From the IMG/VR virus record IMGVR_UViG_3300037010_000760, positions 1-64,000 of that record: 64,000 nucleotides of DNA, one strand, 5' to 3'. Source of the stretch: a virus. The notes below the pieces were generated by a model. The model was not told the origin of the DNA. It saw nothing but the letters and a program-made list of their open reading frames with translations, and did not search any database. Shown here piece by piece: positions 2,154 through 19,392 of the stretch; position 1 is the stretch's first letter, and each line of letters starts with the position of its first letter. The translations under genes and the position numbers were made by a program.

Positions 2154-4868
2154 ATGGGGTTATTCTCTAGTAGTTATAGGACATATGTCTCATCCACTGC
2201 CTACAATTTGGCTGGAGATATTAAATTACGTCCAGACTACCTAAAAACCTTAGTTGTTGGTGGAATAACTTCCCCTAATAACTCATCTCTAGGAGATACA
2301 ATTCAAGGTGGTTATTTTAACGGCCCAGGAATGAAGTTACGTGCTTTTGCTAAATGGACTAGATTAGATAGCCCCCTAGGGTATAACAATGAGATTGGGT
2401 TTAGTTGTACTAATGTATCAGTTGGTGACTCTATTGATAATAACACACTAGCTGGAGAGATTCCACATACTAGTAACCAAGAGGTATTAATTTCAACTAG
2501 CTTAATTGACTTTGGAATATTCACTTATTGGACAGACCAATACATGTTAGACAACCATCCTGAGCTTATTAGCACAGTATGGAAAACTGACTATGCTGGC
2601 GATACAAATACCATAAAAATAACTTTTGAATCTGGTACGATAGAGACATTTGTTCCAGTTGATATGGATAGTTCTAAGCAGTATCTAATTGCTTTGTATA
2701 AGTCAGGTACAACTACAGGAGTTGGTACGAATACCATATTTCCAGTAGTTACTCTACCAGTAGGCCAAGATTTTGATGACATGTCATCTTATGATGTGGT
2801 GTCCACAAGCTCCATTGATAAAACTGCCAGCCCTTACCGCACAATACAGACTATTTCCACATTCTCTGATAATCGTCCTCAAGTAGATGGGCCTATAGAT
2901 TCGTCATCTGTAGATATTACTTTTCAACAGCTAGATAATGTATACAAAAAAACCATTACCAAAGAAGGTTCTGGAGATTCTATTGTTACGCTAGAAGACG
3001 ACATAACTCATCAACAGTATTACGGTGGTATGACTTCTGCCACTACAACGTCAATTACTACTACTGATATAGGAGGTGGTATAATACGTACTGATACTAC
3101 TACAACTATTCAGCAGACATTTTACGTCACTAGAGTCATTGTCGAGTCTCAACAAGAAGTATCTAAAAAATCTTGGAGTTCTCCAAAACTATTCTTGTAT
3201 CAAAAAGGTAGTGGTAATTCTGTACTAGATGCCTTGATTGTATCTCCTGATGCCACAGCAGCATTCTTACCATTTATACCAATACGTCTAGATAATAAGT
3301 TTTTATCCAAAGACTATTTGCCTACTATATTCAGCGCCTCTAAGTCTGCTTTTAGACGTAGCACTGGAGGTAGCAGTCTTAATAAGATAATATCTAAAAT
3401 ATCAGATAATAAGTCATTATCTGATATTGACTATACGTTTGCTCTGTTTGGTGTATCCCTAAATGTAGTAGAGATGGCCTGTCGCCAATATCTATTCACA
3501 TTTTTTGATCAGATGCGGCTACTATATTCATCCCAGTTATTATCAGTAGATGCTTGGCAAGATAAGGTTGAAGAATCCAAACAGTCTATGCTAGATTTTG
3601 AGTCATGGCGATTAGCACAATCAGACTATAGTAATCCCCTGTGTGGTACAGTAGCTCCTACTGTCATACCCACCCCACAATTACCATCTTCTAGCATACG
3701 ACTACATTCTACAAATCCAGAATTAGCGTTTGACTACATAATATCTTGGTCTGGTATAACCAAAGAAACATTATCTGGTTTAGGAAAACCTTCTGCAAAA
3801 GTAAAAGATTATTGGTTAGAGAAGGGAACATCTACTACTGTCACTAGAATTGGTTATGGTAATTACAGTGATGTTGGTCAGGTGCTTCAACCCATAGACC
3901 CTGTTATAATGAAGGCTATATGTGTATACTTTCAAAAATCAGACACGGAATATGAAAAGATTACTATATATGCTTTAAAGCATAGAAATACTATTCACAA
4001 TGGTCACTATGTAGACATTGATGCCCATACTGCATTAGATGACGTAGAAGAGTCTGGGTTCATAATTCCCATACATGAGGGTATCTTTAAAGAATTGCCT
4101 ATAGTAGTATCTACCCAGATGACTACTGCTTGTGCTTATTTGATTTTTAACTCTTATCAAGATGTTACAGTTAAGTGGTATCAAACAGGTATATTTAGTG
4201 CGATTTTGCAGTTAGGGGCTATAGTATTAGCTGTAGTATCAGTCGGAACAGCTACTGGAGTCAGTATTGGTATATTAGGATCAAGTTCTGCTGTAGGAGC
4301 TGCAATAGGATTATCTGGTACTACTGCTTTAATTGTAGGCGCTATTGCTAATGCTATTGCTGCTGTCATAGTATTCAATATAGTATCTGGAGTTGCTACT
4401 CAAGTGTTTGGTGCAGAGCTGGGTTCCATAATAGCAAGTGTAGTTACATTTGTTATGGCCAACCCAGGTATTATAAATTCATTCTCATCTAGTATATCTA
4501 CTGGATTTTCTGAGTTGACTAAAGCTAGCAATCTACTTAAGTTAACTAATGCAGTCAGTGGTGGATATACTCAATACGTGCAGGCTTCTATAGGCCAATA
4601 TGCAAAAGACGCCGAATCTTTTATGCAAAAATACCAGACTGAGAGTAGGGCTGTATCGGATGCTTTTTATGCCGAGTTCGGTAATAATGCTGGAGCAGTC
4701 ATTTCCCCCTTAACCCGTATAGATTCCTCCTCTGGTTCCTCCTCTGGGGAAACACCTAGTTCGTTTTTCTCACGAACCCTTTTAACAGGGAGTGAGATTG
4801 TGGAACTTACGCACTCAATGTTGAGTGACTTCTCCAAAATCACTCTTAGTACAGACTTACCTAGTTAA
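2154..4868 (+). CDS. Large virion protein with membrane-like segment (N4 gp53 position)
   Basis: 904-residue protein of unknown family. The first ~670 residues are Ser/Thr-rich, beta-type sequence (for example TSATTTSITTTDIGGGIIRT). Residues ~681-772 form three or four hydrophobic, Gly/Ala-rich stretches (QLGAIVLAVVSVGTATG, TALIVGAIANAIAAVIVFNI, SIIASVVTFVMANPGI) compatible with membrane insertion. The position inside the internal-virion-protein block, upstream of a transglycosylase-bearing protein and vRNAP, suggests an ejected protein that helps build the channel for vRNAP and DNA (inference). It is far larger than a minor head protein. The start ATG at 2154 is 5 bases past the previous stop. 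Confidence 0.6.
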   Translation: MGLFSSSYRTYVSSTAYNLAGDIKLRPDYLKTLVVGGITSPNNSSLGDTIQGGYFNGPGMKLRAFAKWTRLDSPLGYNNEIGFSCTNVSVGDSIDNNTLAGEIPHTSNQEVLISTSLIDFGIFTYWTDQYMLDNHPELISTVWKTDYAGDTNTIKITFESGTIETFVPVDMDSSKQYLIALYKSGTTTGVGTNTIFPVVTLPVGQDFDDMSSYDVVSTSSIDKTASPYRTIQTISTFSDNRPQVDGPIDSSSVDITFQQLDNVYKKTITKEGSGDSIVTLEDDITHQQYYGGMTSATTTSITTTDIGGGIIRTDTTTTIQQTFYVTRVIVESQQEVSKKSWSSPKLFLYQKGSGNSVLDALIVSPDATAAFLPFIPIRLDNKFLSKDYLPTIFSASKSAFRRSTGGSSLNKIISKISDNKSLSDIDYTFALFGVSLNVVEMACRQYLFTFFDQMRLLYSSQLLSVDAWQDKVEESKQSMLDFESWRLAQSDYSNPLCGTVAPTVIPTPQLPSSSIRLHSTNPELAFDYIISWSGITKETLSGLGKPSAKVKDYWLEKGTSTTVTRIGYGNYSDVGQVLQPIDPVIMKAICVYFQKSDTEYEKITIYALKHRNTIHNGHYVDIDAHTALDDVEESGFIIPIHEGIFKELPIVVSTQMTTACAYLIFNSYQDVTVKWYQTGIFSAILQLGAIVLAVVSVGTATGVSIGILGSSSAVGAAIGLSGTTALIVGAIANAIAAVIVFNIVSGVATQVFGAELGSIIASVVTFVMANPGIINSFSSSISTGFSELTKASNLLKLTNAVSGGYTQYVQASIGQYAKDAESFMQKYQTESRAVSDAFYAEFGNNAGAVISPLTRIDSSSGSSSGETPSSFFSRTLLTGSEIVELTHSMLSDFSKITLSTDLPS

Positions 4869-7563: not shown

Positions 7564-7590
7564 CCTCAACCCAAAAAGTTGGGGCTTTTT
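7564..7590 (+). terminator. Terminator or attenuator before vRNAP
   Basis: CCTCAAC (7564..7570) pairs with GTTGGGG (7578..7584, one wobble pair) and is followed by CTTTTT. It lies directly after the promoter-like motif and 15 bases before the vRNAP start, so it may end the upstream transcript or attenuate vRNAP expression. Confidence 0.6.
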
Positions 7591-7605
7591 CACTTAGGAC
7601 ACACC

Positions 7606-10600
7606 ATGCCATCTGTTAGCGACCTACTTACTCAGTTATTCAGTAATCCAGCATCCTCTGATATGGTTAAACCAAGTATCGGTACATCAACTGAAATTGG
7701 GATAACAGTTGATCAAAATAGCATGCTAAAGCAAGCAGAAGTAGATGCTGCTGCTGCTAGAAAAAAAGAAGAATTAGCTGGTACTTCTTTATCTAGTATG
7801 GGTGCCTATGGACTAGGTATTACTTCTAGCACCGGATATGGTGCTAGAAGTGCGGGTCAGTTAGATAAGGACATGCTGACGCGCAATCCGGGTGAATTAA
7901 TGAGTAAGTATGGGGCAGAAGTAGCTTTACGACTTCTTACTCAAAAAGCATCTGGGGAAGACTCATATAACATTGATAGAGGTATGCCAGTAAGTACCGG
8001 AGAAAATATTTCCGACTTTGCAATAAATACTGGTATCAGTGCTATAAATGCTGTTGGTGGTGCTGGTGCCTGGGCAGGTTCTCTAATAAATGATAAGCTG
8101 GGAACTACTTTATCTGGTAGCCTAGATGCATTTAATAATGCTGCGTCCTCACTTACATCTGATCGCTCTAAATCAAGTAAGCAGATTAATAGTACAACTA
8201 ATTGGCTAGATACTCGTGATAATGAGGCACAGTATCAAAAAGATAAAACCAATGGCGATATACTAGCTGTACTAAAACGTGAGGGCAGAAATGCTATTGG
8301 TGCAGTAAATATTGCTAAATCTGATCCAACTACGCTTTTAGAGGGTACTGCTAGCGGCATTGGTTCTATGTTAGGTTTTGGTTACTTTAATAAAGCTGTT
8401 CAGGGTATTGGTGGTACTGGAAAAGTAGCTACCATGATTCGTGATGCTAGTCTTCCAATCGCAGGTGGCCTAGTTGGTGGAGGCAGCATCTACCAACAAA
8501 ACGTATCTGATATTATGGCCAAATCTACTGAAGAGATGGCTCAACAATCCCCGCAATATAATAAATATGTTGCTCAAGGCTTGTCACCTAAAGATGCACA
8601 AATACGTGTTGCTGCTGAATCTGGTGAATATGCTGCTAGCATAGCTGGGCCACTAGATATGATGACCACAATGATGGTTCCCGGTGTTAATGAGATACCA
8701 CATCATGTTGGTTCAGTAGGAGAAGCATTTAAGCACACCCTGTTTGAGCCTGTGCAGGAGTTTATTGAAAGTTCTAACGAGCAATTTGCCAGTAATGCCG
8801 GAAATCAATATAAGTTTAATCCTAATCAGGACATAGCCGAAGGAGTGGGTAAAGCTGCTGGTACAGGTGCCTTATACGGTCTAACTTCTGCTGGTGCAAC
8901 CCACGCTCCGGGTGTTGCTATATTAGGGGCAAAAGCCACTAAAGATGCTGCTGCTACTCTTCTTGGTTCTCTGAAGGATAAAGTTAGTTCTATTAGTGCA
9001 GATAACGAAAATAGTAGTCCAGTATCCAATGCTGCTTTAGCTACTAAAGCAACAACTGCTGCTACACAGACTCCTATTGTAGCTGCTAATATGCAAGCTG
9101 CTGCTGCTAATAGTGATCCTGCTATGCAGGCAAGAGTTGCTAACTTTACTAATATTATGCAATCTGTTAGCACACACGATGCTAATGATTTTGCAGAATC
9201 CAGTGATTCAATTAAGGCAGCATTGAGCGGTGCTACTACAAAAATAGATGAATTAAATGCATTGAAATCCGTATTCAATAATAAAGATTCTACAGACTCT
9301 GATAAAGATTTTGCTGGTACTAAGTTAATTGATGAACTTAGTTCTATGAATGAGTTTTTGAATACTCAAACTGATGTTATTGATGCCGTTCAAGACGAAC
9401 CAACAAAGAAATTTGTACGTGGTATGAAGCAGTTTGCTGCTGATATTCTAAGCAACAAAGAATTTCTTGCTACACGCAATGATATAGCTACTAGATTGGC
9501 TCAGAAGCATGAAACCAGTCATCCTGAATTGGCTATTGCTGCCGACCCAACATCTCAAGAGGGCAAACAGGCCATTGCAGAGACTTTGGCCATAGCCAGT
9601 ACATTGCCTACTGAAGTCAATGGAAAAGCCGTGGATGCCATTCTGAAGCATTCTGAGGACGGTTCTATAAAGCTGACCCAAGAGCAAAAGGATAATCTGG
9701 AAGTCTCCAAAGCCGCTATTACAGCCCTTCAGGACAATCTAGTAGACGGTTCCGATCTGATGCGTGTATCCACTGAAGCAAGCAGTGCAGGTTTAGCTGG
9801 TGACAAAGGTAAGTCCGCCATTCAGCATGCTACTGATATTGTTAGAACTGTATCTGAGGGTAACATTCCTCTTGCCAAAACTTTATTAAAGAGTTTTGAA
9901 AGATTTGCTCAACATTATCAAAATAAAGCAGAAGCTGTTAACCAAGCTACACAAGAAGGTAATGATCAAGACTACAAAGCACATTACACACAATTGGCTC
10001 ATGGTCAATGGGTTGAAAATAAAGCTCTATATACTTTTCAGAAGAGCGGTAAAGGAGTAGAATTAGCTACTCAGGTGCATAAAGAAGCTCGTGCTATCGG
10101 TAGCATGTATAACGCTATTGCATCTATGTATCCCAATATGGGAGTTGAGCCGATTGCTTTAACCAAACCTGATTCTATATTCCTACCGGGTGGTAAGTTT
10201 GACCACAAAGCTACTCAGCATGGTATTGGTGGTAACGGTTTAGCAGGTATTACTGCTTACCGTAACCGTTTAGTAACCCAACAATCGAAAGGAGCCGAAA
10301 ATGGCCACGGGCAAAAAGAAGAAGTGCTAATTGCACCCGGTACTCCATCATTACCTACTAGACCGCCTGTTAGAGCAGACGGTACTGAATCCATCGAAAA
10401 GGTGTTCCACACTGATAGGGTGGAAGCAGCGGCCCAACTTCATGAAAGAAAGTTGGGTGTAGAAAAAGACTTACGCAATGCACTAACTAAGCCCCAACCT
10501 AATGAGGTAGGTTCTCTATATGGTGCATTGCGTGGTATGTTATCCCCTGAGTCATTCAAAAATGACTTAGGTGGAAACCCTAAATTTAACTTTCTTAGGT

Positions 10601-13600
10601 CTATTAAAGGCAATAGCCTAAGAAACTTAATTGAGAATGGTTCATATCTTGATAGTTTTTTAACTTCTAGAATGACACTCAACAAGGGTGAAAATCTAGA
10701 AGCTGCTGTAGAGCACATTGTTGATAAGTTAAATTCTGGAAATTATCTTACTCAACAATTACAAGATCGTTTAGATCAGCTAGGTATAACACTACAGCAA
10801 ATCAATGAGGCAATATCCGATGAGCAACTTGATCAAGAAATCGCAGCCCTCGAAAAACGAATTGCTGATGAAGCTGCAACAGCTAAATCCAAAAAATCAG
10901 CTAGACCTGCTAAAGGCAGTGAAGCAGGGCAGACAGGAACTCAAAAAACAATCTTTGAGTCCGATGAGCAGTCCAACAAAATAGCACCTGTTACTGTAGC
11001 TCCAACTATTAATGCTACTAAATTAGAAGTAACTCAGGCTGAGTACGATAAAGCCATCTCATTACAGTCTATGACTGGTGAGACCGCCCATGATGCATTG
11101 GATTCAGCTAGCAAGAAGACACTAAAAATTCTAGATACTCTAGAAAATAATCCCGATAGCGTAGCTATTACGACAGATGCCACACCTACTGCTACTACTG
11201 CGTCAATAGACAAAATCAATATTTGGTATGGCTCTAGTGAGAATGCTAGTTTAAGTAATCTTGCTGCTCGTAAATTTACTTTATTAGGTAAAGAGTATTT
11301 TTCTGTTGAGCATGCCTATCAAACTTTGAAAAGCGGTTCTTTTGATGAACGCACGTATGCGCGATACAAGAATGCTGGTGTAAAGATTTCTGGTAAGCAG
11401 GCCAAGATAGAAGGTGACTACAACATTAGTTTAATGAAACGACTTATGCTTGCTTCCTTTAATCAAAATAAAGAAGCAAAAGACCTATTATTGGCCACTG
11501 GTAATGCTGAAATTACCCATACACAAGAACAGGGTAAAAGTAAGTGGGCTACTATATTTCCTAGACTTCTCATGGAAGTAAGGAATGAGTTACGTGCCAC
11601 ACCTAACGCTACAGCACCTGACACTGCACTAACATCATCAAAGCCTTCTACTGGGCCTACTCAAGTTACCCCCACTACACAGGTGTCACCACCTGCGATA
11701 GTTTCTCCTACAGTAAATCCAATATCTGATGCAGAGCTTAGTAAGTTAAACCTATTTTTGGCTGCTAAAAGTAGATTAACTGAAATAATAACTAATCCTG
11801 CTACATATGACCCAAAAATAGTAGCTGCTGCCAAAAAGGAGCTTTCTGGGTTAACAAAAGATAGGCTTAATAAAGTAGACTATTTATTTGATGGTTTTCC
11901 TAGTGATAAAGCTGAACTGGATTTTCTATCCAATGCTCCTCCGTCTCTTATTGCCGATACTCCCGGTAAACTAGAACGTCTATGGGAATTGCGTAATAAA
12001 TCAGGAAAATTGTTTGCTAATCTTGGTACAAGCAAGTTGCTTTCCACTGCTGGTAATATACTTATTGCTGGTACTAAGCCTGTTAATGAAAAGCGTGCTA
12101 GTCAATTAACTGATCGCCCTTTGGATACATTTGTTCAAATAGTCAATGAAAATACTAATATCAAAAGTGACGATAAAAAGCTACGTACTGGCTTGGCTAA
12201 ATATATAACATTACGTGCTAACTTGCTTCAATTGGCAGTTAGTAGAACTGTTTTAAATGAAGCAAACTCAGATAACAATCTGATAAAACTACTTCAGCTA
12301 GACCATCTTGACTCTCTGGGTAACAGTAATAAATACCGTATTGATTTGTTTCCGCAAAATAGACTGTTTTCTTTATTGGCTCCAGTAGATGAAGGGGATA
12401 CTCCAAAAGTAAAGCTTGACCCTCGCCTTATGGAAACTGCTTCTTTAGCATTTATGCAGTGGATGCTTGGTGCAGTAGATCGCAAAGCTGTTGTTGATGA
12501 AAAGACTGTAGCTGGTATTCTTGGTATAGATGAAAACCTTGTTACTGAGGCTCAGATAGCAGAATATTCAGAACGTATTACTAATATTGAGGCTATTGAT
12601 GCCATTAGTGCTGGTATATTGCGGCACTGGGGTTTAAAGCCAAAAGATAACATTCAAATAGGCTATAGCGAAGGTGTTACTAGAGTATTAGCAAAAGAGA
12701 TGCTGGATGCTGCTGTTAGTAAGGAATTGATTGAAGCAGGTTTTGGCTTAAATCACAATCAAGTTCGTATTGATAGTAATAAAACTGTTGATAGCTATGG
12801 CATAGATAAGTTACCAAAGAATGTTAAGTTAGCTAATGCTATTTTTCCTGATTTAGTTGATAACACTGCTTTTCTTAAAAATGATCAGGTTATGTACATT
12901 GGGGACGTTACTGTACCTACATCTAAAACTATCTTGCGGGAGCCTGAACAATTACTTAGTCCTGAGCAGATTAGAGCACAAGACAATAACCAAAAAACTA
13001 TTCATAGAATAGATGAGGCGTCTTACAAATTATTTATGGGTATTGGGGTAAAGGGGATATTTGATATTCTTTCTTTGCCTGAAAAAACTGATTTACTGAA
13101 CATAGGTCATGCTAAATCTGTTATTGGTAAAAAGCAGGGCATATCTGCTGTGTTCAATAAAATGAAAGAAGTATACCAAAGAGTTTCTAATCTAGCTACT
13201 GATGGTGATGTTCATGGAGTGCCTATTCATTATAAGTTTGAATATACCAGCACAAATCGTTTACAGATGATAGGTAGTCATACACCACAAGCTAGTAAAT
13301 GGATGCGTAATGTAATACTTCCTACCAACGGAACAATAGATGCTACATACGGTAAAATGGGATATACATCATTCATGTTATCTGTGGCTCAGAATCTTGG
13401 AGTCTCTATCCAAAATTATTCTAGAGAAGCCAATATAAGTAAGATAGCTACTAAATTAGACGGTGAACTTGCTGATGTTGTTAGCCTACTTAAAGATAGG
13501 GTAATTAATAATGAAGATAGGGTATCCCCTAAACTAATAGAAGCTTTGAAATCAGCCTTGGGATCGGAATTTACCCCATCCTCTTTATATGCACTTCATG

Positions 13601-16600
13601 AATATGCCCGCTATCTGGCCAGCAGTGAGGCTGATAAAGCGAACTTTAAGACTGGCCTGTATATTGAGGCTGATGGGGTTAATAACGGCCCCGCCAGTGC
13701 TCTGATGATGCTTGGTGGAACCAGTGAACTCACTCATGAATTCTTTACCAATGCAGCCCGTATAGGTTATTTTATTGGTTCAGATGACAGAACACTTAAC
13801 CAACAACGTCAAGAAGACCCTACAGGATTATATGAGGCAGGTGCTCAAGTGTTGCCTACTTTCTTAGCTGATTTTGGTAATAAAATTGATGGCCATATTA
13901 TACCAGAAGGCGAAAATACACCTGCTATTGATCTCGGTGCTTACTTTGATCAAGTTAAGTATGTAGTAGCTAGTTTACTACCCAACTTCTCTATGGACGA
14001 AAATGGTAATTATACCATTGGACGTTCTGTTATAAAGAATCCCCTCACTAAAACTGTATACGGTTCTGGCTCTCGTGGTATGGGTAATGGTCTTCTTAAA
14101 GACATGCTAAATGCATTCTACGAGAAGCTATCTATAGTCAAGCTATATGAGGACTGGTATAGTAGTGAGGGTAAGAGTAATCCTAGAGAGTCAGCCTTTG
14201 TAGAGGTATTTGGTGACCAGTACAGAGAACTAATTAAGTCAATGCATCGTCTTGCTAGTCATAGCGTAGAAGTTGAGAAAAAACAATTTGTTGTTAAGAA
14301 TGGTATCTCCCCCCAAAATAAGTTTTTTGTTGAAAATGACTATCTTAATTTTGAGGTATCGGGTACTGCATTTAATAGCATGAGCAACAATATTAATACA
14401 TTCTTTTCCAAGAAAGTAAGGAGTGCTATTACTGATGTTATGTCCGAAGCTGTTATGGACTCTACTCAATTGTTAGCTAAAGCAACTAGCTTCCATACTG
14501 AGTTCATGTCCCATGAGTTCAATAAGCTATACGAAGCTGCTTTAGCTAAAAGAAAGAATTCTGATCACTTGTATAGACAAGCTGATGGTTTGTCCAATGA
14601 TGAACTACGTGCTATTACAAATAAAATGTCTAAGACATTTCCTTATATAAAAACAACTACACAAAGTTTTAATCCAGTTGGTGCCTCCAAGATAAGTAGT
14701 GATAACTTCATAGGTGTTACGTCTACCGGATATAAGGTTACTCCATCCATATTTGTACCAGAAAGTGCTGGTGTATCTGGCATTCCTTACATGATTATTG
14801 GTTTAGGAGATGGAAGAACTATTCAGATATTTTCAGATGGTGGCCCAGAAGATACATTAAATATTTATGATGGTATCCATATGGGCTTAGGTAAAGTAGA
14901 AGAATATAGTAAGAGAGCTAATTCTGCTGTTTGGGACTCATGGCAAGGTAATCCTTTTGGTGCTCTTTTTCCATCTCTATCCACATTCGTTACTAACTAT
15001 GACTGGCCTACTTTTTTAGCTTCTGCTAAATCGGATAAACTAAAAATTGCTCCTATCCTAGCTGCACTACATATTAAGTCTGTTTCCGAGTTACCAAATT
15101 ACATAGCAAATCTTATTAATAATGTTTCAACCTCTGCTAAGAATATAGATGCTACTCACCAAGTTTTAGGCAAATATAAGGCTACTATTGATCAGTTAGC
15201 CTCTATAGGCTCACCATATGTTAAATCAGGAGCGGATATTATTATTGATGATGCCTCTATAGCTGATATAAACTCCAAAATATCTTCTATAGCTCAGGCT
15301 GATACTAATTATGCCGTAAATGGTATACTATCCGATGTTGCAGCTAAATTTAATGTACCCACCCCAACAAAACCTACTGAGTACAGCCTCAAATCATTTA
15401 TAGCAACAGGTAGTGTAGCCAATAAGACTACCACTGTAGAATCTCTACTGTCTACTAAATTACTTGATAATGTTTCTGTAAAGTACGGGCCACTAAGCTC
15501 ATTTAGCGACAAGCTAACAAAAGATGACTTTGGTGGTTATGACCCAAAAACAAATACTATTTATATAGCCTCAGATAAATCTGGTGGAGTTGAGACATTA
15601 ACGCATGAAATGGTTCATGCTGCTACATTTAGGGCTATTGCCAATCACTATGCCAATCCTGGTAACTCAGTTATAGCTACTGAAGTGTCCAGATTAGAGA
15701 CATTGATGGGTAGCTTTTTAAACAGGGCTGCCTTATCCATAGACGATACCGTCAGTGGTATAGCGGATAAAATCAATAAGATTGGTGATAGCTCTATTAA
15801 ATTGAATGAGTTTATGGCATATGGTTTGTCAAACCCTGCCATGCGTGCTGATTTAACCTCTGCTACTGCCTTAAAATTGCCTGAGAATATTATTAATAAA
15901 TATACTGGTAAGATTAAGCAACTGATAAAAGATATTCTTACTAAATTAGGTGTGCAGGCTCAAAAAACAGAATATGATCAACTTGTATTTAATGCGGTTC
16001 ATGTGATGGCTAGTGGTGATAATGCTACTATGTCTAATGGACAAATTCTCAAAATGGCTATTGGTGGCCTCAATACCAATAACCGTCTAAATAAGGTTAC
16101 TGAATTCTTTGCTAGCAGCCTTGATAAATATCTTGATAGTCAGATAGACCCTGCGTTTTCAAGACTACCTCCAACAGGTTTACTTACTAAAAATCCAGGT
16201 GAGTTTACTAGAGCAGATAGACTTGGATTTCAAGTATCTACTCTAATTGCCAGCAAATTTAATACCAGTCCACAGGAAAAAGTGGCATTGGATATGATTG
16301 TAAGTACCTTGGCAACAGGTGCTAAATTAGATGGTAATATCATGTCTGGTATAGAGCAACTCTATACCCACTTTACCAAGAATCTAACTCCAGAAGACTT
16401 CTTGCTAGTTGCCCCAACTGATGCTACCCAAGCAGATACCTATGAAGCTAACGAGATGTATAACCTCGTCATGGGCAACTATACTACAGCTAAAGACGTG
16501 TATGGCCGTGGCCAGACACTGCCTATATTCTTTTCTTTGGGGCTAGTGAATGATCGCTTCCGTGATGTGCTGTCCAAGAAGGGACTTCCTGAAGCCATCA

Positions 16601-19392
16601 AGGTGATCTCTAGTGATACTGATGCGTTCCTAACTAGCTCTGCAAATTTCCTATTGGACAAAATGGATAAGGCTCTGATAGGAACCGCAAAATCCAAAAA
16701 CACTCAGCAAGCCTTGGATAGTATCTTTTCTACTTTGGTTCAAACTGGTACAGATTCCCTGACGTTGGTTGGTGCTGGTTTAAATAAAACTGGAAGTATG
16801 GTTGATGGTATAAATGACAGAGTTGTCTCAGCTATAGAATATGTTTCAGCTAAGTTAAATGATAGTGCTGATAAAAAATTAGCAACTACATCTAATAAAG
16901 TTGTAAAAGGTGTTGCCAACGTAGCCAAGAATATTGCTTTATCAATAAATGAAGATACAGCAGCTCGTGTTGGTGAGTTTGCTGTCTCATTGTCTAATCA
17001 GTCAAATTTATTTAAACCACTTCAATCTTTAATAACAGATTTTGTTGGCAGGACTGATAGTAACAAATTGTTATATGACATGATTAAGTTTGTTAGATCA
17101 AATGCTCAGAAAGATCGTCAGCATTATCGTGAAGAACTGCCTGCCATATTAGCATCACAATTTACACGTAAACTATCTGATAAAGAGTGGACTCATCTTT
17201 TCACTGGCCTAGCTAAAACAGATTTAGCACAATTAGTTAACTCAATTGGCATTAAAGATACGGTTTCACTATTGTCTGACCCAACAAAAATAGATACTCG
17301 TATTACTACGTTAGAGGCTAACCTGAGAAATCAAGTGCCAAGTAGCTGGCCTAGTATTCAGAAAAAGTCTAAGCAGCTTGCTAATTATATGATGACTGGT
17401 GAGCATGGCCCTATGCTTATGCGTAATGCTGATATTATTCAGTTAACTTTAGGTGGCAACCGTAATGAGATTGACTCTCTGGTAACTCTGTACGCTCTAC
17501 AAAAACTTGAGCAGCCTGTAAAGACTACCCTTACTTCTTTAGTTCAAACTCAGAAATCTGGCATTGATTCCCTAGTCGGCTACCTATCTGGTCAGCGCCA
17601 AGATGATATACATCCTGATGCTGCTATTCGTATGAACGTATATAAAGGATATATCCCATCATTGCAAAATGAATCGGTATCGTTAAAAGTGATGCCGAAT
17701 ACAGAGCATGCTGCTATGCTAGAAAAGGGTTATATTCGTACAGGCAACTATGCAGGCTCTATACTTGAGACCAGAGCCTCATCTAGTTACTACTTCTTAA
17801 ATGCCCCTGCTAAAGCTGCGTTTAGTCAGGGTCTCATACAAAACGTACATAGTACATCTGGTGGCATTGATACTAGAACTCTATTCTCTACTGGATTAGT
17901 TGCTGGTCGTATTGTCGACCCTAGAGTAGTAAGTAAGCTAGCCCCGTATCTAAATGGTGATGTAGCTGGTAACGAGAATCTGTTACCCATATTTGATGGT
18001 ACTGGTAACATCATTGCATTGGAGAGGGCTGTACGTCCAGATCAACTTGTACAACTAAAGCAAGATACCCATTTAGCAAAAATGATTGGTGTATGGCGTG
18101 GTCGCCAAGTTGAGGAGTATAAATCAAGAGCTGTTAACGAGGCACTTATTTCCAGATTTAAGCAAATGTATTCTGACGATATTAGTAAAAATCCAAATAC
18201 CGCTAGAGAGTATGTTAATCTATTTCAGTCCCAAGACCCAATACACAAAGATGCGCTAAAACTAATGCCTATTTATATGAAGAGGGCATTGGAATCTGAG
18301 TTTGGAAAAGATACATTTATGGTCAGAAAAGACATGATTGACAGCACCATCGGTTATCGTACACCATCTATAGGTGATGCTTGGACTGGTGTATCTGGCT
18401 GGAGTCCTAAGAGTCTCGAATTAGCTAAAAATGTCACTATGTCCATATTTGGTAATAAATCATATGAGTACCTTGTGAATGCAGAGCAGATACTCAAAAA
18501 TGCTATACAAGATGTTAAGCTGATTATTGTCGTTAAATCTGTAATTGTGCCTGTTGGTAATATGTTAGCCAACGTCATTCAATTAATGTCTAGAGGCGTG
18601 CCTATCAATGATATTGTTCGTGGAATGCCAAAAAAAGTTTCTGAAGTTACTTTCTACAATAAGCAACATCTTCGTAAAATTGAGCTAGAAGTCGCATTAC
18701 GTGTTGCTGAGGGTAACAATGATATTGTTGGTATTCGTAAAGCAAAGAATGAGTTGGAGACTATTGAAGATAGTTTCCGTAGACTAAGCATTTGGCCTTT
18801 AATACATGCAGGAGAATTTTCTGCTATTTCTGATGCTGGTATTTCTAGAGATGATATTATTTTGTCAGAAGGTAGACTGCATACCTATATAGAGAACCTT
18901 ACAAACAAGTTGCCAGATGGAGTACGTACAGCGGCTAAATATGGTTTAGTCGCTAAAGATACTGCATTATTCCAAGGTTTGCAAAAAGCAGTTGAATATG
19001 GTGACTTCTTGGCTAAGGCTATTCAGTATGATTATCTGACTACTAATAAGAAACTTAGCAAAGAAGACTCGTTAGCCCGTATATCTGAAGAATTTGTTAA
19101 CTATGACCTGCTAATGGGCAGATTCCGAGAATATATGGAGAACATTGGTCTATTATGGTTTACGGCTTTCAAAGTACGTTCTACCAAGATAGCTGCATCC
19201 ATTATAAGGAATAATCCATTCCATGCTTTAATGTCATCTATCCCCCATTCATTTATGCCATCAGGTACTGGCACCCCTATTACTGATAACGCGGTAGCCA
19301 AGACTATGACTGGTAGTATTTGGTACTCACTTGGATTTGGTCAAGCATTACGTGCTCCTCAATTAAATCCTTGGTTCAATCTGGCCTATTAA
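7606..19392 (+). CDS. Virion RNA polymerase (N4 gp50 type) with inserted NADAR domain and zincin segment
   Basis: 3928 residues; N4 vRNAP is about 3500. ATG 7606 is chosen because AGGA lies 6 bases upstream; a frame-open TTG at 7579 falls inside a terminator. In order: Gly/Ala-rich N-terminal region; NADAR domain ~1206-1330 flanked by low-complexity linkers; T7-type polymerase core with TSTNR 1881-1885 (T/DxxGR motif with N for G), motif A DGVNNG with D2023, motif B R2140, K2144 and Y2152 (exact T7 spacing, YGSG follows), motif C YDG with D2422; HEMVH zincin motif with H2667, E2668 and H2671; long helical C-terminal region. In N4 this enzyme is packaged, injected with DNA and transcribes early genes from hairpin promoters. 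NADAR relatives remove ADP-ribose from nucleic acid or bases. The zincin could self-cleave or cut a host protein; both added roles are inferred. Confidence 0.9.
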   Translation: MPSVSDLLTQLFSNPASSDMVKPSIGTSTEIGITVDQNSMLKQAEVDAAAARKKEELAGTSLSSMGAYGLGITSSTGYGARSAGQLDKDMLTRNPGELMSKYGAEVALRLLTQKASGEDSYNIDRGMPVSTGENISDFAINTGISAINAVGGAGAWAGSLINDKLGTTLSGSLDAFNNAASSLTSDRSKSSKQINSTTNWLDTRDNEAQYQKDKTNGDILAVLKREGRNAIGAVNIAKSDPTTLLEGTASGIGSMLGFGYFNKAVQGIGGTGKVATMIRDASLPIAGGLVGGGSIYQQNVSDIMAKSTEEMAQQSPQYNKYVAQGLSPKDAQIRVAAESGEYAASIAGPLDMMTTMMVPGVNEIPHHVGSVGEAFKHTLFEPVQEFIESSNEQFASNAGNQYKFNPNQDIAEGVGKAAGTGALYGLTSAGATHAPGVAILGAKATKDAAATLLGSLKDKVSSISADNENSSPVSNAALATKATTAATQTPIVAANMQAAAANSDPAMQARVANFTNIMQSVSTHDANDFAESSDSIKAALSGATTKIDELNALKSVFNNKDSTDSDKDFAGTKLIDELSSMNEFLNTQTDVIDAVQDEPTKKFVRGMKQFAADILSNKEFLATRNDIATRLAQKHETSHPELAIAADPTSQEGKQAIAETLAIASTLPTEVNGKAVDAILKHSEDGSIKLTQEQKDNLEVSKAAITALQDNLVDGSDLMRVSTEASSAGLAGDKGKSAIQHATDIVRTVSEGNIPLAKTLLKSFERFAQHYQNKAEAVNQATQEGNDQDYKAHYTQLAHGQWVENKALYTFQKSGKGVELATQVHKEARAIGSMYNAIASMYPNMGVEPIALTKPDSIFLPGGKFDHKATQHGIGGNGLAGITAYRNRLVTQQSKGAENGHGQKEEVLIAPGTPSLPTRPPVRADGTESIEKVFHTDRVEAAAQLHERKLGVEKDLRNALTKPQPNEVGSLYGALRGMLSPESFKNDLGGNPKFNFLRSIKGNSLRNLIENGSYLDSFLTSRMTLNKGENLEAAVEHIVDKLNSGNYLTQQLQDRLDQLGITLQQINEAISDEQLDQEIAALEKRIADEAATAKSKKSARPAKGSEAGQTGTQKTIFESDEQSNKIAPVTVAPTINATKLEVTQAEYDKAISLQSMTGETAHDALDSASKKTLKILDTLENNPDSVAITTDATPTATTASIDKINIWYGSSENASLSNLAARKFTLLGKEYFSVEHAYQTLKSGSFDERTYARYKNAGVKISGKQAKIEGDYNISLMKRLMLASFNQNKEAKDLLLATGNAEITHTQEQGKSKWATIFPRLLMEVRNELRATPNATAPDTALTSSKPSTGPTQVTPTTQVSPPAIVSPTVNPISDAELSKLNLFLAAKSRLTEIITNPATYDPKIVAAAKKELSGLTKDRLNKVDYLFDGFPSDKAELDFLSNAPPSLIADTPGKLERLWELRNKSGKLFANLGTSKLLSTAGNILIAGTKPVNEKRASQLTDRPLDTFVQIVNENTNIKSDDKKLRTGLAKYITLRANLLQLAVSRTVLNEANSDNNLIKLLQLDHLDSLGNSNKYRIDLFPQNRLFSLLAPVDEGDTPKVKLDPRLMETASLAFMQWMLGAVDRKAVVDEKTVAGILGIDENLVTEAQIAEYSERITNIEAIDAISAGILRHWGLKPKDNIQIGYSEGVTRVLAKEMLDAAVSKELIEAGFGLNHNQVRIDSNKTVDSYGIDKLPKNVKLANAIFPDLVDNTAFLKNDQVMYIGDVTVPTSKTILREPEQLLSPEQIRAQDNNQKTIHRIDEASYKLFMGIGVKGIFDILSLPEKTDLLNIGHAKSVIGKKQGISAVFNKMKEVYQRVSNLATDGDVHGVPIHYKFEYTSTNRLQMIGSHTPQASKWMRNVILPTNGTIDATYGKMGYTSFMLSVAQNLGVSIQNYSREANISKIATKLDGELADVVSLLKDRVINNEDRVSPKLIEALKSALGSEFTPSSLYALHEYARYLASSEADKANFKTGLYIEADGVNNGPASALMMLGGTSELTHEFFTNAARIGYFIGSDDRTLNQQRQEDPTGLYEAGAQVLPTFLADFGNKIDGHIIPEGENTPAIDLGAYFDQVKYVVASLLPNFSMDENGNYTIGRSVIKNPLTKTVYGSGSRGMGNGLLKDMLNAFYEKLSIVKLYEDWYSSEGKSNPRESAFVEVFGDQYRELIKSMHRLASHSVEVEKKQFVVKNGISPQNKFFVENDYLNFEVSGTAFNSMSNNINTFFSKKVRSAITDVMSEAVMDSTQLLAKATSFHTEFMSHEFNKLYEAALAKRKNSDHLYRQADGLSNDELRAITNKMSKTFPYIKTTTQSFNPVGASKISSDNFIGVTSTGYKVTPSIFVPESAGVSGIPYMIIGLGDGRTIQIFSDGGPEDTLNIYDGIHMGLGKVEEYSKRANSAVWDSWQGNPFGALFPSLSTFVTNYDWPTFLASAKSDKLKIAPILAALHIKSVSELPNYIANLINNVSTSAKNIDATHQVLGKYKATIDQLASIGSPYVKSGADIIIDDASIADINSKISSIAQADTNYAVNGILSDVAAKFNVPTPTKPTEYSLKSFIATGSVANKTTTVESLLSTKLLDNVSVKYGPLSSFSDKLTKDDFGGYDPKTNTIYIASDKSGGVETLTHEMVHAATFRAIANHYANPGNSVIATEVSRLETLMGSFLNRAALSIDDTVSGIADKINKIGDSSIKLNEFMAYGLSNPAMRADLTSATALKLPENIINKYTGKIKQLIKDILTKLGVQAQKTEYDQLVFNAVHVMASGDNATMSNGQILKMAIGGLNTNNRLNKVTEFFASSLDKYLDSQIDPAFSRLPPTGLLTKNPGEFTRADRLGFQVSTLIASKFNTSPQEKVALDMIVSTLATGAKLDGNIMSGIEQLYTHFTKNLTPEDFLLVAPTDATQADTYEANEMYNLVMGNYTTAKDVYGRGQTLPIFFSLGLVNDRFRDVLSKKGLPEAIKVISSDTDAFLTSSANFLLDKMDKALIGTAKSKNTQQALDSIFSTLVQTGTDSLTLVGAGLNKTGSMVDGINDRVVSAIEYVSAKLNDSADKKLATTSNKVVKGVANVAKNIALSINEDTAARVGEFAVSLSNQSNLFKPLQSLITDFVGRTDSNKLLYDMIKFVRSNAQKDRQHYREELPAILASQFTRKLSDKEWTHLFTGLAKTDLAQLVNSIGIKDTVSLLSDPTKIDTRITTLEANLRNQVPSSWPSIQKKSKQLANYMMTGEHGPMLMRNADIIQLTLGGNRNEIDSLVTLYALQKLEQPVKTTLTSLVQTQKSGIDSLVGYLSGQRQDDIHPDAAIRMNVYKGYIPSLQNESVSLKVMPNTEHAAMLEKGYIRTGNYAGSILETRASSSYYFLNAPAKAAFSQGLIQNVHSTSGGIDTRTLFSTGLVAGRIVDPRVVSKLAPYLNGDVAGNENLLPIFDGTGNIIALERAVRPDQLVQLKQDTHLAKMIGVWRGRQVEEYKSRAVNEALISRFKQMYSDDISKNPNTAREYVNLFQSQDPIHKDALKLMPIYMKRALESEFGKDTFMVRKDMIDSTIGYRTPSIGDAWTGVSGWSPKSLELAKNVTMSIFGNKSYEYLVNAEQILKNAIQDVKLIIVVKSVIVPVGNMLANVIQLMSRGVPINDIVRGMPKKVSEVTFYNKQHLRKIELEVALRVAEGNNDIVGIRKAKNELETIEDSFRRLSIWPLIHAGEFSAISDAGISRDDIILSEGRLHTYIENLTNKLPDGVRTAAKYGLVAKDTALFQGLQKAVEYGDFLAKAIQYDYLTTNKKLSKEDSLARISEEFVNYDLLMGRFREYMENIGLLWFTAFKVRSTKIAASIIRNNPFHALMSSIPHSFMPSGTGTPITDNAVAKTMTGSIWYSLGFGQALRAPQLNPWFNLAY

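Follow-up and report, generated by a model that had tools for sequence, protein, structure and literature searches.

N4-like virion RNA polymerases (vRNAPs) with ART, metallopeptidase, lysozyme and PBECR modules have been described and termed polyvalent, among them a roseophage vRNAP with an ART domain (Iyer et al. 2017, PMC5512222). In the vRNAP of phage N4, the N-terminal domain (NTD) inserts in membranes, and residues 907-1006 form a disordered, low-complexity linker that joins it to the polymerase (PMC12633501). The RNA polymerase of crAss-type phages is a virion component as well (PMC7886860, PMC10172136). NADARs have been proposed to be often packaged in virions, and phage NADARs have been called typically stand-alone (Iyer 2022, PMC9503650). 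A literature search for a NADAR domain inside a virion RNA polymerase found no report.

We analysed 64,000 nucleotides of viral DNA (positions 1 to 64,000 of IMG/VR record IMGVR_UViG_3300037010_000760), here called the window. One giant ORF in it contains the following parts.

7579 to 19392, plus strand: N4-like vRNAP gene, 3937 aa from a TTG; probable start at the ATG at 7606
7606 to 10176, plus strand: NTD, residues ~10-866, homologous to N4 vRNAP residues 18-890
11203 to 11610, plus strand: NADAR domain, residues 1209-1344, placed by profile matches, an AlphaFold2 model and Foldseek
12391 to 15678, plus strand: single-subunit RNA polymerase domain, residues 1605-2700 (conserved part), placed by profile and N4 homology

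The ORF matches the vRNAP family phrog_2206 with E=0 and contains four Pfam vRNAP domains, all above cut-off. Homology to N4 gp50 covers residues ~51-866, 1605-2551 and 2651-3937. Genes upstream match N4-type virion structural families, genes downstream match SSB, primase and DNA polymerase, and the gene order is that of N4. NTD, single-subunit RNAP and CTD in one giant ORF beside gp51-gp54-type neighbours mark the protein as an N4-like (Schitoviridae) vRNAP. The first-pass annotation, made from the sequence alone, had put it about 430 residues above the N4 enzyme; measured lengths are 3937 and 3500 aa, a difference of 437. The first ATG, which opens the reading MPSVSDLL, is residue 10 (nucleotide 7606) and is a likelier start than the listed TTG at 7579, which would give a protein of 3928 aa. 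By homology to N4 (PMC12633501), it would be packaged in the virion and ejected into the host. With RNAP and NADAR in one ORF, it has the make-up of a polyvalent protein, presumably located in the virion.

Profile matches to NADAR from four libraries span residues 1221-1317. PF08719 matches with E 2e-4 when the whole vRNAP is the query and with E 7e-6 for residues 1150-1392, where the 26.8 bits fall under the gathering score of 35.1 bits. The segment also matches TIGR02464 (E 8e-6, 26.2 bits against a cut-off of 73.7) and phrog_1017 (E 2.5e-8), and among PDB sequences YbiA, 2b3w (E 0.013). The HMM comparison foreseen at first pass thus gave a significant match that nevertheless stays below the Pfam and NCBIfam cut-offs. 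A curated cut-off is a scoring convenience and no biological feature; homology rests here on the fold and on chains of relatives. A search of viral contigs with the single sequence found no close relatives. An alignment of 67 sequences, the window NADAR and 66 relatives from viral contigs, served as AlphaFold2 input and yielded a model with pLDDT 85.5 and pTM 0.82. The top three Foldseek matches of this model in the PDB are 2b3w (YbiA, E 1.3e-5), 8bau (P. nicotianae, 1.4e-3) and 8bat (G. lovleyi, 0.04), and the fourth has only E 1.9. We regard the NADAR fold as settled because the top matches are all three solved NADARs, followed by this gap. Against a viral library, giant proteins of crAss phages cr131_1 and cr272_1 lead, followed by named NADARs. 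The fold search, together with 43-57% identity to other NADARs, rules out chance similarity. Profiles, relatives and the predicted structure agree in confirming segment 1209-1344 as a divergent NADAR domain, as the first-pass annotation had proposed for residues ~1206-1330; its coordinates, 11221-11595, correspond to residues 1215-1339 and are revised here.

Two narrower assignments were rejected. For a YbiA-type N-glycosidase acting on riboflavin intermediates, the segment scores 26.2 of the 73.7 bits of TIGR02464 and has His in place of Glu at position 125. For a DarT1-associated antitoxin it has His, not Asp, at that position, and it lies inside a vRNAP ORF that has N4-type virion genes upstream.

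The E. coli C7 NADAR requires E88, K95 and D171, equivalent to E43, K50 and E125 of the P. nicotianae protein (PMC11543638, PMC11125620). At position 125, YbiA has Glu, DarT1 partners and BC4488 have Asp, and phage NADARs have His (PMC11543638, PMC11125620). Counterparts in the window are as follows.

11308 to 11310, plus strand: E1244, counterpart of catalytic E43 (P. nicotianae) and E88 (E. coli C7) (PMC11543638)
11329 to 11331, plus strand: K1251, counterpart of K50 and K95, a phosphate contact essential in C7
11518 to 11520, plus strand: H1314, part of an invariant TH motif and aligned with E125 and D171; His in phage NADARs

The catalytic Glu and Lys of the superfamily are both present and invariant in the clade, and the third catalytic residue is of the phage (T4 gp30.3) type. 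The first-pass annotation had looked to the catalytic acidic residues: E1244 is kept, but the second acid is absent, replaced by H1314, a known phage-type variant. Across the 67 aligned NADARs, in which relatives share 28-51% identity with the window, the residues that never vary are S, N, E40 (=1244), K47 (=1251), L, T and H110 (=1314). Invariance of three catalytic positions over such divergence argues that selection has maintained activity rather than a spacer. The counterparts of R79 and W89, which contact pyrophosphate, are replaced by V and E in the window NADAR, and W89 is lost throughout the N4-type subclade, so substrate or affinity may differ. Judged from these residues, activity of the domain is probable and its ligand pocket possibly altered. 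T4 gp30.3, a NADAR of the same His type, and YbiA both hydrolyse guanine-ADPr in vitro, yet neither protects cells against DarT1 (PMC11125620).

With the same homologous domains taken as end points, the stretch from NTD to polymerase is 190-560 aa in surveyed vRNAPs and ~740 aa in the window. NADAR sits within this extended equivalent of the N4 linker 907-1006, with a Ser/Thr/Pro-rich stretch C-terminal to it. That it is a modular insertion flanked by Ser/Pro/Ala-rich linkers, as read at first pass, is borne out by its setting between two vRNAP domains in linkers rich in Thr, Ser, Pro and Ala.

A direct repeat, TGCCACACCTA (16/18 over 18 nt), brackets NADAR in frame at 11178 and 11595.

11178 to 11195, plus strand: repeat copy 1, TGCCACACCTACTGCTAC, 16/18 identical to copy 2
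11595 to 11612, plus strand: repeat copy 2, TGCCACACCTAACGCTAC, 417 nt (139 codons) downstream of copy 1

Within the 11.8 kb vRNAP ORF, no other such pair is spaced 380-450 nt apart. A different repeat of 13 nt, again with 417-nt spacing, is present in L023, a further N4-like locus described below. Of 62 NADAR loci, 11 are flanked by an exact repeat no shorter than 12 nt, in frame in every case; the expected number is 0.8, and 200 permutations across loci never gave more than 4. Controls within the ORF bear this out for most loci but not for all, and self-similar linkers could contribute to the repeats. A second, independent contig of the same phage, IMGVR_UViG_3300035661_000138, begins exactly at 11595 and is identical over the compared stretch. 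An assembler would be expected to break there if a NADAR-less allele coexisted, so such an allele of the window phage is possible; a search through contigs for the upstream flank, which could have revealed it, found nothing.

The survey of other N4-like vRNAPs was run from two directions. Selection by polymerase similarity gave 80 vRNAP loci; in 69 of them a single ORF holds both NTD and polymerase, and NADAR is found in 0 of these 69. The window NADAR segment has no match in any vRNAP of 50,697 phage records. The NADAR-first search of viral contigs, in which three of four query rows were crAss-type, gave 80 contigs, and three N4-like vRNAPs among them (L028, L024 and L023) carry NADAR between NTD and polymerase. 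The vRNAP of L028 is complete, 3941 aa, with NADAR at residues 1194-1321; the L024 contig terminates after NADAR; the L023 vRNAP is divergent (N4pol E 4e-28, NTD 4e-9, CTD 4e-32 in an HMM search without filters). NADAR is rare in N4-like vRNAPs. The first-pass statement that no standard N4 vRNAP is known to have such a domain is supported by the polymerase-selected set and the phage records; the three N4-like carriers show that the arrangement is not unique. Between the window and L028, the NADARs are 52% identical and the polymerases 26%, which points to transfer of the module. Three Dinoroseobacter records matched the NADAR query from crAss phage cr126_1, and the Dinoroseobacter vRNAP loci (L013, L014) show no NADAR. 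A local match in the CTD of the EE36phi1 vRNAP (E 0.08) was dismissed as noise.

The same linker holds other modules elsewhere. ART-PolyVal scores above cut-off in the vRNAP linkers of L028, EE36phi1 and vB_DshP-R7L; in L028 it occupies residues 1066-1177, directly N-terminal to NADAR at 1194-1321. Among 13 roseophage-type vRNAPs, ART is found in 7 and NADAR in 1, the other ART carriers being without NADAR. A search for ART-PolyVal in the window genome found none; the positive control was missed too, which makes this a weak negative. As separate observations, L028 combines a writer and an eraser of ADP-ribose within one virion polymerase, and ART-PolyVal lies between NTD and polymerase at residues 931-1044 of the L015 vRNAP and 942-1022 of the L013 vRNAP. 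An M90-like zincin (HExGH) is present in the linkers of L028 (~1399-1547), L013 (1148-1257) and L014 (1057-1178), above the Pfam cut-off in L014.

Most NADAR-first contigs lead to a different polymerase. In 58 of the 80, a NADAR of the same clade shares an ORF with an RNAP of the crAss (phi14:2 gp66) type, mostly with the DFDxD motif; this figure includes near-duplicates and is inflated because three of four query rows were crAss-type. Polymerase-first selection found NADAR in 6 of 80 crAss-type RNAPs, at varying positions, two of the six being one sequence. Fusions to crAss-type RNAP are found in L009, L010, L019 and L020 (cr126_1, cr131_1, cr130_1 and cr272_1), with others among L035-L100. 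The arrangement is thus not confined to N4-like vRNAPs: a related domain is present in numerous crAss-type virion RNAPs. One crAss-type protein and one of another kind are located as follows.

L009, 5509 to 12717, minus strand: cr126_1 protein QOR59539 (NADAR and gp66-type RNAP), NADAR at residues 62-189
L022, 3255 to 11660: LPD38 polyvalent protein with NADAR, 2802 aa, the NADAR 55% identical to that of the window

The cr126_1 NADAR, at 51.6 bits, exceeds the Pfam cut-off, and residues 940-1813 of the protein match 6vr4 (E 9e-15) with the DFDID motif aligned. NADAR is N-terminal in cr126_1 and downstream of the DFDxD motif in cr130_1, cr131_1 and cr272_1 (TAG read as Gln). The crAss-type fusions often show in-frame flanking direct repeats. 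Other giant proteins fuse NADAR with cpYpsA SLOG (L096, L066) or a DprA-like domain (L026). In a phylogenetic tree whose bootstrap had not settled, the four N4-type NADARs group with L022, L096, L066 and stand-alone genes (98/99), apart from the crAss-type group; L025, with a crAss-type RNAP, neighbours the window NADAR (98/69). Stand-alone NADARs of 141-168 aa in the same subclade as the vRNAP ones are found in L027, L029, L033, L034 and L037. Searched from either direction, NADAR emerges as a sporadically distributed module with a strong link to giant injected proteins. Kindred NADARs in unrelated injected phage polymerases suggest a portable tool against host defence at entry.

Our main reading, to which we give a probability of roughly 55%, is that NADAR is an injected, horizontally acquired ADP-ribosyl N-glycosidase cargo that acts against ADP-ribose-based host defence before phage expression. 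What we see directly is the domain identity, fold, catalytic residues, position, recurrence in virion RNAPs and flanking repeat; packaging and ejection we infer from N4 and crAss phages, and activity, substrate and counter-defence role are putative. Lodged in the flexible linker between the membrane-inserting NTD and the polymerase, the enzyme would travel in the virion, reach the cytoplasmic face of the membrane together with the DNA or before it, and act prior to any phage gene expression. According to the N4 model, refolding of the polymerase takes place in the cytoplasm while the NTD stays embedded in the membrane (PMC12633501); a domain in the linker would then face the incoming DNA. The most probable target would be ADP-ribose on guanines of the incoming template, as DarT1-type toxins place on single-stranded DNA; another ADP-ribose conjugate produced by host defence is the alternative. 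The N4 vRNAP uses single-stranded hairpin promoters. Because DarT1 modifies guanines in single-stranded DNA (PMC11543638), protection of a template of this kind would be an attractive function. More tentatively, two unrelated virion RNAP families may have repeatedly taken up one portable, repeat-flanked NADAR cassette, with tethered removal of guanine-ADPr coupling template repair to first transcription; we hold this fuller version to be rather doubtful.

The main rival to template protection is that NADAR hydrolyses soluble ADPr signals or toxins (cyclic ADPr, ADPr-1''-phosphate) from host NADase-based immunity, not ADP-ribosylated nucleic acid. Phage NADARs have been argued to target mostly small ADPr derivatives, and pairings such as the SLOG and DprA-type fusions of this clade have been read as soluble-ADPr handling (Iyer 2022, PMC9503650); loss of the W89 and R79 contacts is a further hint of another ligand. 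We nevertheless consider it unlikely, as the NADARs assayed in two studies act on guanine-ADPr (PMC11543638, PMC11125620) and a tether to a DNA-bound polymerase would have no clear benefit against a diffusible signal. The same two lost contacts, and a linker whose length varies in any case, would suit a catalytically dead or structural insertion that merely lengthens the linker or binds ADPr or DNA. Invariance of E, K and H across the divergent alignment speaks against this, and we judge it very improbable.

The neighbouring ART of L028, and the slot it fills in 7 of 13 roseophage-type vRNAPs, raise another explanation, that NADAR reverses ADP-ribosylation by a phage-delivered ADP-ribosyltransferase, either as protection against an own goal or as timed reversal. 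The remaining ART carriers, however, have no NADAR, the window genome yielded no ART-PolyVal (the weak negative above), and ART-PolyVal is predicted to modify proteins while NADAR acts on bases. Reversal of this kind fits L028 but not, as far as seen, the window, for which we think it improbable.

The injected-cargo reading offers a directly testable case of phages shipping an eraser of DNA or RNA ADP-ribosylation with the genome, ahead of gene expression. It presents the virion RNAP linker as a site for interchangeable cargo, with ART as writer and NADAR as eraser of ADP-ribose, allows a module to be read in many giant crAss-type RNAP proteins annotated as "hypothetical", and points to host defences active in the first minutes of infection. 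Stand-alone phage NADARs reportedly neutralise DarTG1, in work that is not known to cover virion RNAP fusions; this would strengthen an anti-DarT1 reading.

Among known systems, the window vRNAP resembles the polyvalent phage proteins of Iyer et al. 2017 (PMC5512222), giant virion RNAPs with effector modules presumed active at entry; in roseophages, ART-PolyVal occupies the linker slot that here holds NADAR. Vehicle and cargo are thus a known idea; unlike the proteins of that study, with 0 occurrences of NADAR, the window module is predicted to remove ADP-ribose and recurs in crAss-type RNAP, and this recurrence in two unrelated polymerase families is unreported. The anti-DarT factors AdfA and AdfB are likewise phage countermeasures to DNA ADP-ribosylation, but AdfB is produced after infection and targets the toxin (PMC11481870), unlike a virion-borne NADAR. 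The crAss-like virion RNAP phi14:2 gp66 (6vr4), injected with the DNA, provides the parallel through cr126_1, although it is a two-barrel enzyme unrelated to the single-subunit N4 type. With the NADAR superfamily (YbiA 2b3w, DarT1-associated NADAR, 8bau, T4 gp30.3) the domain shares the fold and the SN...E..Q..K motif, and with T4 gp30.3 the His at the third catalytic position. It differs from known NADARs in being embedded in a virion RNAP, which departs from the description of phage NADARs as typically stand-alone (PMC9503650), and in forming a clade of its own with a THTQ(D/E)....W..FP motif, within which the N4-type subclade has lost W89.
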